A stretch of 64,000 nt of DNA, from positions 124,001 through 188,000 of the forward strand of contig JAIRYV010000064.1 in NCBI GenBank assembly GCA_031267685.1, given 5' to 3'. Origin of the DNA: Treponema sp. Lineage in GTDB: Bacteria; Spirochaetota; Spirochaetia; Treponematales; Breznakiellaceae. Below, piece after piece: positions 55,632 through 59,618 of the stretch (positions within the stretch are counted from its first letter, which is position 1; each line of letters opens with the position of its first letter). The position numbers and the translations under genes are program-made. The notes below the pieces were generated by a model. It did no database searches. It was not told the DNA's origin and saw only the letters and a program-made list of their open reading frames with translations.

Positions 55632-56507
55632 ATGCAAAGATTTTTTTTGTCACCATTAATAGACCTTGTTTTTAAGAAGCTGTATGGAGACCCGCATAAC
55701 GCAGAACTCCTCCGCAGTCTACTGGGAGCCATATTGAGTTTACCTGTTGACGAGTATAGTCAGCTTGAGTTTTTGGATACTCACCTGAGACCAGACATAG
55801 GAGGCGGTAAGTTGGCGATACTCGACGTCAAGGTAAGGACCAAGGGCGGCAAAATCATTGACATAGAGATACAGCTATTTCGGGTAACAGCATTTCGCTC
55901 GCGGATACTGTTTTATATGGCGCAGATGATCGTGCAACAGATCAATAAAGGAGACCCATACTCGAAGATCAAGCCAGTCATTTCTATTGTCATTGCGGAT
56001 CATTCTTTTATTAGCAAGGAAGAAGAGGGTGATTATCACAATGTGTATCACTTGGCGAACAAAAAGAGCCACAAGTCATTTACGGACATAGTTGAGATAC
56101 ACACCATTGAGTTAGACAAGGCGCCCGTTGGAGGAGACGGGACTTTATTGGGGAATTGGTTACAGTTCCTAAAATCGAAGACAGAGGAGGAATTTGCCAT
56201 GATAGCACAGGCGGATCCAGTAATAGCAAAGGCGGTTGATATTCTGGTAGACATGAGCGCGGACGAGCAGTTACGTACAGAGGCATTCTATCGGGATAAG
56301 GCTCTTCACGACTACAACACGCTCATGGAGGAAGCTCTCATTGAAGGTATCGAAAAAGGTATCGAGCAGGGTATCGAAAGAGGTATCGAAAGAGGGCGCT
56401 ATGCACAAGCGCGGGAGTCAGCCATAAAGCTGAAGCACCAGCACATTCCGTTCCAGATCATTGCCGAGAGTCTTGGGCTTACCGTGGAAGAAGTTGAGCG
56501 CCTCTAA
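55632..56507 (+). CDS. Rpn-family recombination-promoting nuclease (PD-(D/E)XK)
   Basis: 291 residues of the Rpn/transposase_31 family, DNA nucleases that promote RecA-independent recombination in E. coli and have recently been linked to phage defence. The N-terminal hallmark is DLVFKKLYGD, and the active-site region is LAILDVKVRTKGGKIIDIEIQLF (Asp and E-x-Q). The C-terminal tail contains the repeat IEKGIEQGIERGIERGR, then a small HTH-like end (IIAESLGLTVEEVERL). Such genes are variable and often transferred. It lies 100 bases from the palindromic array, possibly by chance. Confidence 0.88.
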   Translation: MQRFFLSPLIDLVFKKLYGDPHNAELLRSLLGAILSLPVDEYSQLEFLDTHLRPDIGGGKLAILDVKVRTKGGKIIDIEIQLFRVTAFRSRILFYMAQMIVQQINKGDPYSKIKPVISIVIADHSFISKEEEGDYHNVYHLANKKSHKSFTDIVEIHTIELDKAPVGGDGTLLGNWLQFLKSKTEEEFAMIAQADPVIAKAVDILVDMSADEQLRTEAFYRDKALHDYNTLMEEALIEGIEKGIEQGIERGIERGRYAQARESAIKLKHQHIPFQIIAESLGLTVEEVERL

Positions 56508-56859: not shown

Positions 56860-56861
56860 TT
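56819..56861 (+). terminator. Terminator between convergent rpn and barrel genes
   Basis: GGGCTATGCC (56819-56828) pairs with GGCATAGCCC (56846-56855), with an inner CGG..CCG stem, followed by TTTCTT on the plus strand. It ends at the stop codon of the minus-strand gene and probably serves both directions. Confidence 0.7.
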
Positions 56862-58650
56862 AGAAGCCCCACCAGAACTTGACCTGAACTTGGTTGTAGA
56901 TACCGCGCTCAGGATCAACTCCTGTCTGCATGATCTTTATCTGATCACGCAGACGAATCCCCGCATTCGGGCCAAATTTGAACTCAATACCCGGACGAAG
57001 CGTAAACCCAATTTGGTTGTAGTCATAGCTATCTTCTAGCGCTTTCTTTGACTTTTCAGGATCGCCGCCCCAGAAGTTATAGTAGCCGCCAAAAAGGAGC
57101 GAAGCTGTGATGCTATTGGTGTCATCGGAGAACAGCTTATAGCTCGGCGCCCACTCAACCGAAAGTTCAGTGTTGGTATTGTCGTCACTGACATAGAGCG
57201 GATCATTCCGAATCCATGCGTATACGGTGAATGTCTCTAAGGAAAACGAGCCAAGCTTGACGAGATCGGACAGACTGATGTCAAGACGGGGGTGAAGCTG
57301 GAAATTGACCGACCGTTTGTCGCCGTCACCACTGATAGGTACCTTTTTGAGGTCATCCTCTCCCTTATTGAGGTCAGCGAGCTGCATCTCTGCTCTAACC
57401 TGGATCGGTGATAAGTTGAAATCAAGAGCCACGTTCAGGTCCATACTCTCGCTCAGAGGTTTAGCCTTAGCAGCCGCATCAGCCGCAGTCTTAGCAGCTG
57501 CATCAGCCGCAGCCTTAGCAGTCTCAGCAGCAGTGTAATTGTCCCAATGGTAAGTGTGAGCCTGAGCAAGAGCAGTAGCCTTACTCTTAAGAGTCGTAGC
57601 CGCAGTCTCAGCAGCACCAGCCTTAGTCATAACATTAGTTATGTTAGAAGCAGAAGGATCATCAGCCGCAGCCTTCTTAGCATCAGCGAGATCCTTATCA
57701 GCCGAAGCAGCAGCAGTCTTAGCACTAGCGTAATCGCTCCAGGTAGTTGCACCCGACACCGAGCCCGCTGTCTGAATGGCCGTCTCAGCCGCAGAGAACT
57801 TCTGAGCAGCCTTAGTAGCAGCCGTAGCAGCAGCATCCGCAGCGGTACTGAGCGCATCATAGGAACCACCCCTGAGTTTCAGGGCGGCGCTTATGGTGGT
57901 ATACGGGATCAGTTCAGCGAGTTTGAAGCCGACGATCATGTTCTTAAAGGAATAATCAAATTTTGTTTCGACCTTCGGAACAGGTAGGGTAACACCAACG
58001 TTCAGTCCCTTAAGGGCAGTGATGGCAATGGGATTGATGTTGAGCTGAACAGCGCCGCCAGGATCATTTCCATAGGACCAGTTATCATCCCAAGCCGTCC
58101 ACGGGTCTTCGGGGCCACCCGCACGGAGCCACAGTTGCTTATTGAGCAACCAGAGCTTACCCCAGGGACTATCAAAATAGCCGTTAAACTCGCCATCAAA
58201 GTTGTTTACACGCCTTATACCACCTCCGACACCGAAGGAGTAACCGACGCCCGGTGCATCGCTATTGTCGTAAGAGGCGCTAAAGCTGATTTTACCGGTA
58301 TAGTCTTCATCATCGTTTTCTATGATAGTCGTGTCTCCCGCGTCCACCAACTTATTAGCATCCTTATCGTATGTTTTGGTCGGCGTGGTAACGAGAAAGC
58401 CGTTGAACACAGTTTGGACGCCGATGCTGAACGTTCCCGTACCGATGGAGACGCTGGGAGCGCTCCATTTTGTAGGCTCAGGCGCTTCCTCGGCAGCTTC
58501 GGCTTCCTCGGTGATAGCTTCGGCGACTTCGGCCTCCTCGGTGATAGCTTCGGTGGCTTCGGCTTCCTGAGCGAAAGCCATTCCGCTTATACCCCCGCAC
58601 AGCGCGAGAGCAAGACTTATCGAAACAAAGTTCCGTTTCATTTTCTTCAT
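56860..58650 (-). CDS. Outer-membrane beta-barrel protein with an Ala-rich coiled-coil insert
   Basis: 596 residues. A signal peptide ends at MAFA (residue 27) and is followed by an acidic Glu/Ala region made of repeats (residues 28-57, EAITEEAE). The main body is a series of amphipathic strands with many aromatic residues and ends in Phe (KFWWGF), the outer-membrane insertion signal. Between about residues 263 and 397 the barrel is interrupted by a long helical stretch extremely rich in Ala, Lys and Asp (for example AAKTAADAAAKAK), predicted to form a coiled coil that would project from the surface or into the periplasm. AAGGAG precedes ATG 58650. It resembles Treponema porin-like proteins; pore function is inferred. 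Confidence 0.75.
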   Translation of the reverse strand: MKKMKRNFVSISLALALCGGISGMAFAQEAEATEAITEEAEVAEAITEEAEAAEEAPEPTKWSAPSVSIGTGTFSIGVQTVFNGFLVTTPTKTYDKDANKLVDAGDTTIIENDDEDYTGKISFSASYDNSDAPGVGYSFGVGGGIRRVNNFDGEFNGYFDSPWGKLWLLNKQLWLRAGGPEDPWTAWDDNWSYGNDPGGAVQLNINPIAITALKGLNVGVTLPVPKVETKFDYSFKNMIVGFKLAELIPYTTISAALKLRGGSYDALSTAADAAATAATKAAQKFSAAETAIQTAGSVSGATTWSDYASAKTAAASADKDLADAKKAAADDPSASNITNVMTKAGAAETAATTLKSKATALAQAHTYHWDNYTAAETAKAAADAAAKTAADAAAKAKPLSESMDLNVALDFNLSPIQVRAEMQLADLNKGEDDLKKVPISGDGDKRSVNFQLHPRLDISLSDLVKLGSFSLETFTVYAWIRNDPLYVSDDNTNTELSVEWAPSYKLFSDDTNSITASLLFGGYYNFWGGDPEKSKKALEDSYDYNQIGFTLRPGIEFKFGPNAGIRLRDQIKIMQTGVDPERGIYNQVQVKFWWGF

Positions 58651-58918
58651 ATAAGATTTCTCCTTAATTGGATTGCATACGTTAATTCGCCCTGAGCGGT
58701 AACAGCGCTCTTAGCAACCATACTCGGACTAAGGGTGATTTCCGAAAGTTCGTTCTTGTAGGGTGTTTTGTTCCGCCTGCAACTGTCAGGCGCGCCCTTC
58801 AGGTTGAGCTTTGACTTTAGCATCTGCGCCTCGTTGCCAGCATTACACATCCGGTGAACGTAAACCCCAATGCCAGCATGATACTGAGCATTGCCATTAC
58901 ACCTGCTTTGCTTTTCAT
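58647..58918 (-). pseudogene. Frameshifted small lipoprotein upstream of the barrel gene
   Basis: ATG 58918 has an excellent AGGAGG (58929-58924) and begins a clear lipoprotein signal, ending TFTGC at residue 24, but the frame stops at 58817 after 33 codons. Removing two bases from the TGTGT at the lipobox would continue in the other frame (NAGNEAQMLKSKLNL and on) to a stop at 58647, which overlaps the barrel start as ATGA. Either the gene is broken by a dinucleotide insertion, or only the 33-residue form is made. The continuation has no recognised family. Confidence 0.5.
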
Positions 58919-58930
58919 GTTTCCCTCCTG

Positions 58931-58975
58931 AAAAAAACGCTGGAAAGGAACGACCAACGGCCGTCAGTTCTTTCC
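58931..58975 (-). terminator. Terminator just before the small lipoprotein
   Basis: On the minus strand, GGAAAG and CTTTCC arms (58975-58970 and 58947-58942) with an inner stem around ACGGCCGT, then seven T residues (58937-58931). It ends one base before the AGGAGG of the lipoprotein, so it can act as an attenuator. Confidence 0.65.
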
Positions 58976-58984
58976 TGTGCGCAT

Positions 58985-59034
58985 AAAAAATGGGAATCCC
59001 GTCTGTCCACATTATGAAGAGGACGGAATTCCCA
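58985..59034 (-). terminator. Strong terminator downstream of the poly-C frame
   Basis: Arms of 13 bases (59034-59022 and 59003-58991, one mismatch) followed on the minus strand by six T residues (58990-58985). It would end any transcript that comes through the poly-C tract when it is not being translated. Confidence 0.75.
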
Positions 59035-59181
59035 GATTTACCAATAAGAATAGAGATACTGCCTATCCGTACATCGGACAATACGAGACAAACAGAATTC
59101 TGATGAGAAGAAGTATACGCGAACTCTACACGGAGAGCTTTACACCCAGCGACTTGGGCGGATGAAACGAAATTTAAAGCG

Positions 59182-59244
59182 CTATAGGGGGGGGGGGGGG
59201 GGGGGCAGATTGTTAAATATTGTTATTCTCAAAGCGTTTTTCAT
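59182..59244 (-). CDS. Phase-off form of a poly-C contingency frame
   Basis: ATG 59244 has GGAGG nine bases upstream and encodes MKNALRITIFNNL, then six Pro codons from the C tract, then Leu and a TAG stop at 59184-59182. With 18 or 21 C residues instead of 19, the frame stays open for 179 further codons to 58647 and meets the barrel gene at ATGA. The long product has no recognised family. A short, switched-off contingency gene is one reading; an accidental open frame is the other. Confidence 0.4.
   Translation of the reverse strand: MKNALRITIFNNLPPPPPPL
59187..59205. repeat. 19-base G/C homopolymer tract
   Basis: Nineteen consecutive G on the plus strand. Tracts of this length change length readily by slippage and are known contingency elements in Treponema pallidum and Neisseria. 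Sequencing of such tracts is error-prone, so the true length may vary in the population. Confidence 0.9.
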
Positions 59245-59618
59245 ACTACAACACCTCCCTTTTTAAGGATCGCACCCCACCGAGCGCTTCTTTTATAAGC
59301 AATCTTTCCAGACCGCTGTCTTTCGACCTTATCAGGAACCATTTCCTGCTACCATTGAAACCAGTATATCCTACTCTCGTCGGCTTGTCAACAACAATTT
59401 TACACCAATGTGAAAAAATAGAGCAGGCAGCATTTGCCGCCGGCTGCAAACAAGCAAGATACTTCTTCATCATCGGATGTGTGTGTAAAAAGGTTAACAT
59501 ACCCACAGAAAGTATCTTAACCCTGCCATATATAGCTTGTCAAGCATTATTTTGACTTTTACCCAAAAACAAGCGCCGAAAAATTCGTCTGGTCTTCATA
59601 AACGGTGCGAACAAGTCC
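59245..59618. other. Intergenic stretch, no gene
   Basis: Apart from the ribosome binding site of the poly-C frame (59254-59258) nothing is recognisable. No terminator is seen after the serine hydrolase gene. Confidence 0.5.

Follow-up and report, generated by a model that had tools for sequence, protein, structure and literature searches.

A locus in which translation through a homopolymeric C tract is likely to decide whether a downstream gene for a secreted protein is transcribed was identified in Treponema sp. The locus lies in a 64-kb stretch of DNA (the window) from a 2.67-Mb metagenome-assembled genome that is 82% complete, and it is best read as a phase-variable transcription attenuator. 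This reading draws on the anatomy of the locus, its conservation in four species, the keeping of the reading frame after the tract, the conservation of two hairpins, and the recurrence of the arrangement at paralogous loci of the genus and at loci of a second one. The features of the locus are as follows.

59363..59391, minus strand: promoter TTGACA-17-TATACT, 11/12 consensus and perfect to TTGACA-N17-TATANT
59254..59258, minus strand: Shine-Dalgarno sequence GGAGG of the leader (from the sequence), 9 nt ahead of the ATG
59206..59244, minus strand: coding part of the leader, 13 codons, MKNALRITIFNNL, with ATG at 59244-59242
59187..59205, minus strand: C19 tract (19, 20 and 16 in orthologues)
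59182..59184, minus strand: stop TAG met at the present C19 (OFF; from the sequence)
58647..59186, minus strand: frame that is open at C18 or C21, running 179 codons past the tract and ending as ATGA with the barrel gene
58985..59034, minus strand: terminator A, stem 59034-58991 and T run 58990-58985, -23.6 kcal/mol, z -4.4
58931..58982, minus strand: hairpin B, with a CCGTTG loop and a T run, immediately ahead of the Shine-Dalgarno sequence of the next ORF, -18.5 kcal/mol, z -2.4
58817..58918, minus strand: short lipoprotein-like ORF, 33 aa, MKSKAGVMAMLSIMLALGFTFTGC..., starting and stopping at the same points in G001 and G002
56860..58650, minus strand: switched gene, encoding a 596-aa secreted, probably beta-barrel protein with a signal peptide and no family hit

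The window locus was compared with congeneric orthologues in the genomes G001, G002 and G004 (four species including its own), with paralogous loci of the same genus (L008, L010 and L035 in the own genome, L009 in G001 and L011 in G002) and with loci of a second genus (G013, locus L165; G086; G156; G172). Tract lengths are known from different species (19, 19, 20 and 16) and from paralogues (15 and 16), and are consensus values of short-read metagenome assemblies that may be one base off or mix strains. The named relatives of the barrel gene belong to the "MAG: Treponema sp." isolates Cd354_bin115, Gx481_bin13 and Pcl387_bin137, which we take, from the isolate names and general knowledge, to be termite-gut Breznakiellaceae.

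The promoter TTGACA-17-TATACT is located 119 bases 5' of the leader ATG 59244; it is kept in G001 and G004 and is weaker in G002. Its position (59391-59363) places the C tract within a transcribed, and probably translated, leader. The leader start and the residues MKNALR are kept in all four species, and the C tract is entered in the same frame in each. As in the pil1 system discussed below, the repeat tract thus sits within a leader ORF that has a ribosome site of its own and lies 3' of a promoter. The C19 tract is the sole run of nine or more C or G in the window (11 overlapping matches versus 0.32 expected). An earlier note on this DNA had described the ribosome binding site at 59254-59258, the ATG 59244, the 19-base C tract and the immediate stop, and these coordinates were confirmed on the minus strand. 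The third frame after the tract meets a stop TAA at 59176-59174 (minus strand). In each of the four species one closed frame stops at +5 and the other between +10 and +13. As in pil1, the leader stop moves with the frame from well ahead of the hairpin to a point past it, at +5 or +13 when closed versus +540 when open, with the hairpin at +152. Judged by its reading frame, the present C19 is the OFF state.

All four species retain hairpins A and B with their T runs, so that a conserved terminator-like hairpin lies between tract and gene, again as in pil1. The two terminators that had been proposed earlier both fold (A, -23.6 kcal/mol; B, -18.5 kcal/mol), each with a T run after it. The earlier note had named a transcription start downstream of both terminators as a point against its reading; the sequence scan found no sigma-70-like promoter between hairpin B and the barrel gene at the window locus. 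Hairpin B shows five pairs with two-sided changes among 11 sequences. A covariance model of B matched in five genera and in 19 of the 160 family genomes, mostly without a tract, and hairpin B is possibly an undescribed cis-regulatory RNA. Loci with the CCGTTG loop just before the Shine-Dalgarno sequence include L158, L163 and L168-L183. Two tract-less barrel paralogues (contig C4 of the own genome and contig C96 of G004) carry a promoter, a short ORF ending inside A, then B and the gene. The hairpins thus occur more widely than the tract, which may have been added to them later as a switch.

The claim that 18 or 21 C would keep the frame open as far as an ATGA overlap was borne out: the frame runs for 179 codons past the tract and ends in a stop TGA (58649-58647) that overlaps the ATG 58650 of the 596-aa gene as ATGA. 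The search of relatives that had been suggested for the same frame found it conserved in three congeneric species with tracts of 19, 20 and 16, and across the four species the frame after the tract is open for 171-179 codons. Of the 15 pairwise gap runs that fall between the tract and hairpin B, 12 are divisible by three, compared with 3 of 23 further downstream; these counts are not independent and represent roughly four events between the tract and hairpin B. The three exceptions of the 15 are one cut-off effect, a single base missing from the T run of B in G004. The corresponding counts of gap runs divisible by three, 8 of 18 in the paralogues and 5 of 12 in the second genus, are uninformative. 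The frame is conserved before 58918, the start of the short ORF, and not after it. The exact ATGA ending is consequently found in the own genome and G002 only, and the stop falls 17 and 37 nt short in G001 and G004, respectively; the overlap described as exact in the earlier note thus holds in two of the four species.

The long frame has a pN/pS of 0.4-0.9, and a column-shuffle test of synonymous change gave P values of 0.12, of 0.05 without G004 and of 0.01 in the paralogues. Selection on the peptide is weak, and in these alignments conservation is clearer for the frame than for the peptide. That the frame is open through the first terminator has a P of 0.02-0.6 per locus (combined P 0.02, rising to 0.12 when each group is represented by one locus). 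The open frame was rejected as proof in its own right, being not improbable by itself, and tests of frame keeping and of the same frame were therefore used instead. The short lipoprotein-like ORF at 58817..58918 is perhaps a remnant. In the G004 orthologue (L003) this ORF is interrupted by a second tract, G16, which is GGGG in the other species.

The barrel gene has a good Shine-Dalgarno sequence of its own, and its own ATG lies 536 nt past the tract in a different frame. Its product had been called an outer-membrane barrel. The signal peptide, the aromatic C-terminus (by inspection) and the long consecutive beta strands in two AlphaFold models support that name, whereas the protein matched nothing in Pfam, NCBIfam or PDB sequences and the models are of low confidence (mean pLDDT 44 and 34); the identity is plausible on these predictions. 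An alanine-rich helical insert is present in the own barrel protein (window 57440-57860); it is absent from G002 and G004, and G001 has a different one. A gene of the PD-(D/E)XK transposase family (window 55632-56507) lies just past the barrel gene on the opposite strand. A plasmid search gave no match.

In the proposed mechanism, RNA synthesis would start just 3' of the promoter 59391-59363, and ribosomes would start at ATG 59244 and move into the C tract. Slipped-strand mispairing, which we infer to take place in living cells, would alter the length of the tract between generations. With a length that is a multiple of three, ribosomes would trail RNA polymerase through A and B, block their folding and finish at or near the start of the barrel gene, so that the gene would be transcribed and its translation probably helped. 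Reinitiation at the gene start (ATGA) would perhaps be added. With other lengths, ribosomes would stop 5 to 13 nt past the tract, about 140 nt 5' of A; terminator A would then fold and most transcripts would end there, with B as a further predicted site of termination. Attenuation was also the reading put forward in the earlier note, and it is the best one in view of the conserved frame, the lack of a later promoter in the scan and the recurrence at paralogues and in the second genus.

The five paralogues L008, L009, L010, L011 and L035 share one plan: a promoter, a leader, a tract of C13-C16, an extra terminator, A, B and the gene. The closed frames stop at +5 and +13 (L011 differs), and the open frame runs for 141-165 nt through the extra terminator at about +42 to +75. 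The 8-bp helix of this terminator is paired in all five paralogues with two compensatory changes; the sequences being so few, 55 of 500 shuffles were as good. The open frame of the L008 group ends about 12 nt before A, so that only the extra terminator is covered, and more than 100 nt ahead of the gene. L035 lies before a solute-binding protein. Two further ideas for this group were rejected. The first, that the C tract pairs with a G run of the first terminator, fails in that two of the five paralogues lack the G run. A second ORF relaying ribosomes through A reaches ATGA in L008 and L010; it lacks a conserved start, and in G002 its frame is broken. The loci L031 and L040 share 93% identity over 678 bp, have tracts of C15 and C16 and are both cut by contig ends; judged from the leader, only one of them is in frame. 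All nine scored loci of the window's genus are out of frame at present, which has a probability of (2/3)^9 = 0.026 under random lengths; this could fit a mostly-OFF repertoire, and decay could also explain it. These nine out-of-frame loci, the weak selection on the peptide, the unremarkable openness of the frame through the first terminator, the consensus nature of the tract lengths and the uncovered A of the L008 group are among the points that speak against the attenuator.

Tandem units of about 130 bp, each with promoter and leader, precede the C tracts at L037, L042 and L044 (contigs C74, C89 and C98 of the own genome) and at L084 (G001). The leader of the unit reads ..SLIPQK.., and two frames are open past the tract. 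The common downstream repeat of these loci, ..GACGATGTTTCG.CTCGCG.CA.A.ATTCAGTGG.., had no Rfam match.

The second genus carries tracts of C18 (G013), C9 (G086), C22 (G156) and C21 (G172), each with one frame open through A. The stop TAA overlaps or touches the Shine-Dalgarno sequence of the gene in three of these four loci and lies inside B in G013. Ile-Phe-Tyr is read across the T run of A in the four second-genus loci, the window locus and its orthologues; G004 has lost bases at this T run and its frame is still open. The finding that the same frame relative to A is open has a P of 0.02-0.13 per locus (second genus and orthologues of the window locus). The locus in G013 (L165) is the sole in-frame, complete ON example among 12 scorable loci; G156 was left out of the scoring of states, its leader start lying beyond the contig end.

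Among 62 C-sense tracts of the window's genus with a gene downstream, a frame ends near the gene start in 17 (2.9 expected), a count that includes orthologues and a few contig-end runs and therefore stands for fewer independent cases. The G-sense control gave 1 of 44 loci versus 1.0 expected. A frame end was scored from -12 to +25 of the gene start and out of the gene's own frame, and expectations were taken from dinucleotide shuffles. The genes behind such tracts encode a CsgG/OMP-barrel protein, fibronectin-type and other lipoproteins and HAMP/Cache chemoreceptors. A strict cassette motif is confined to the window's genus. G014, a genome of another genus with 135 tracts, gave no clear excess (3 versus 1.4 expected), and generality to all poly-C-rich relatives was rejected on this ground. 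The genomes G014, G017, G026 and G063 contain 52 to 135 long poly-C/G tracts each, and G014, the only one of these tract-rich relatives that was sampled, has an arrangement different from that of the window's genus. At L083 (G001:C135, 2592-4697) a C15 tract precedes a 702-aa protein in which an iron-only hydrogenase C-terminal domain is fused to a chemoreceptor signalling domain. The C96 and C84 runs of L038 (1-109) and L100 are at contig ends and are likely sequencing or assembly artefacts.

Translational coupling alone would also link tract length to the barrel gene: the length would decide whether ribosomes arrive at the ATGA or Shine-Dalgarno sequence of the next gene, where they would reinitiate or open up its ribosome site, and the hairpins would mask the ribosome site without termination. 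ATGA or near-ATGA ends at many terminator-less tract loci, the ATGA in the own genome and G002, and the place of hairpin B just ahead of the Shine-Dalgarno sequence, widespread without a tract, all fit this explanation. It is nevertheless unlikely, as the ATGA is lost in G001 and G004 although hairpins and T runs are kept, the barrel gene has a good Shine-Dalgarno sequence of its own, and the L008-group frame stops more than 100 nt before the gene. Rho binds poly(C) strongly; after the leader stop, naked poly(C) RNA could load Rho, which would end transcription, with the intrinsic hairpins secondary. The genome has a rho gene, and coupled frames favour the C sense (17/62 versus 1/44 for the G sense). 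Such Rho-dependent polarity is rather improbable as the main cause, given the conservation of two strong hairpins of the intrinsic type, each with a T run, and given that the closed frames leave beside the tract a terminating ribosome that may hide it.

The long frame might instead encode a functional phase-variable small protein, with control of the barrel incidental. The sign of weak purifying selection (pN/pS 0.4-0.9; P 0.01 in paralogues) agrees with this, but the long frame has no signal peptide or family match, its conserved peptide segments coincide with the hairpins, its second half is not conserved and the frames at other loci encode unrelated peptides, all of which makes such a protein very unlikely. 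The earlier note had also offered a promoter spacer, in which the tract length would set the spacing of a -35 box, TTAACA, and a -10 box, TATAGC. These boxes exist, 24 bases apart now and 17 apart at C12; the much better and conserved TTGACA-17-TATACT upstream had been missed. C12 is far from every length seen (16-20), and the boxes are not conserved in the orthologue alignment: a 5-nt deletion removes TTAACA in G004, and in G004 and G002 the sequence TGTAGT or TGTAGG stands in place of TATAGC. The spacer was rejected and is scarcely credible. Equally little weight is given to the absence of any working switch, with a decayed leader and a tract that is an assembly artefact. The nine out-of-frame copies and the artificial look of contig-end poly-C runs would suit it, but the tract is interior to a 197-kb contig with unique flanks, recurs at the corresponding position in three relatives whose genomes were assembled independently, and is accompanied by frame keeping and conservation in two genera.

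The class of mechanism proposed here, attenuation by leader translation, is known. The pil1 and pil3 loci of S. gallolyticus were shown by experiment to be leader-peptide attenuators, in which a frameshift lengthens the leader and ribosomes block a premature stem-loop terminator before the surface-structure gene (Danne et al. 2014, PMC3894217). The window locus is similar in having a repeat tract in a short leader ORF upstream of a terminator and a surface gene. The repeats in pil1/pil3 are GCAGA pentamers, whereas the spirochaete loci have a homopolymer, and one hairpin is replaced by two or three. The long leader of pil1/pil3 ends in or near the hairpin, whereas the spirochaete frame runs through it, often to the Shine-Dalgarno sequence or ATG of the gene. 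The pil1/pil3 arrangement comprises two loci in one species, compared with at least nine loci in two spirochaete genera here, which are known by sequence only. The new elements of the proposed switch are the homopolymer, the spirochaete host, the tandem hairpins, the stops overlapping the gene start or Shine-Dalgarno sequence and the multi-locus spread over two genera. Classical slipped-strand loci (Neisseria, Campylobacter) likewise have a long C/G homopolymer and frame-dependent ON/OFF states, but the window tract lies in a separate leader ORF outside the switched gene, unlike the classical intragenic tracts. In Treponema pallidum, also a spirochaete, C/G homopolymers are found upstream of outer-membrane protein genes; the poly-G tracts upstream of tpr genes are thought to act on the promoter, whereas the predicted window promoter lies upstream of a probably translated leader. 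As in trp-type attenuation, leader translation would decide terminator formation; in contrast to it, no sensed signal is evident at the window locus, and the state would be set in the DNA and inherited.

Among the papers found, the only demonstrated cases of phase variation by a leader-peptide attenuator are two pilus operons of a single streptococcus. The recurrence of a homopolymer version at several loci of two uncultured spirochaete genera suggests an independent origin and use across a surface-protein repertoire. Genome scans are thereby warned that a contingency tract may lie outside both the gene and the promoter under its control. More tentatively, the poly-C leader may be a control module repeated before different surface and sensory genes in this spirochaete lineage (barrels, a solute-binding protein, chemoreceptors and lipoproteins), some copies having terminators and others ATGA coupling alone, with the C tract possibly also loading Rho when OFF. 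One kind of heritable random attenuator might then set the surface make-up of these organisms.
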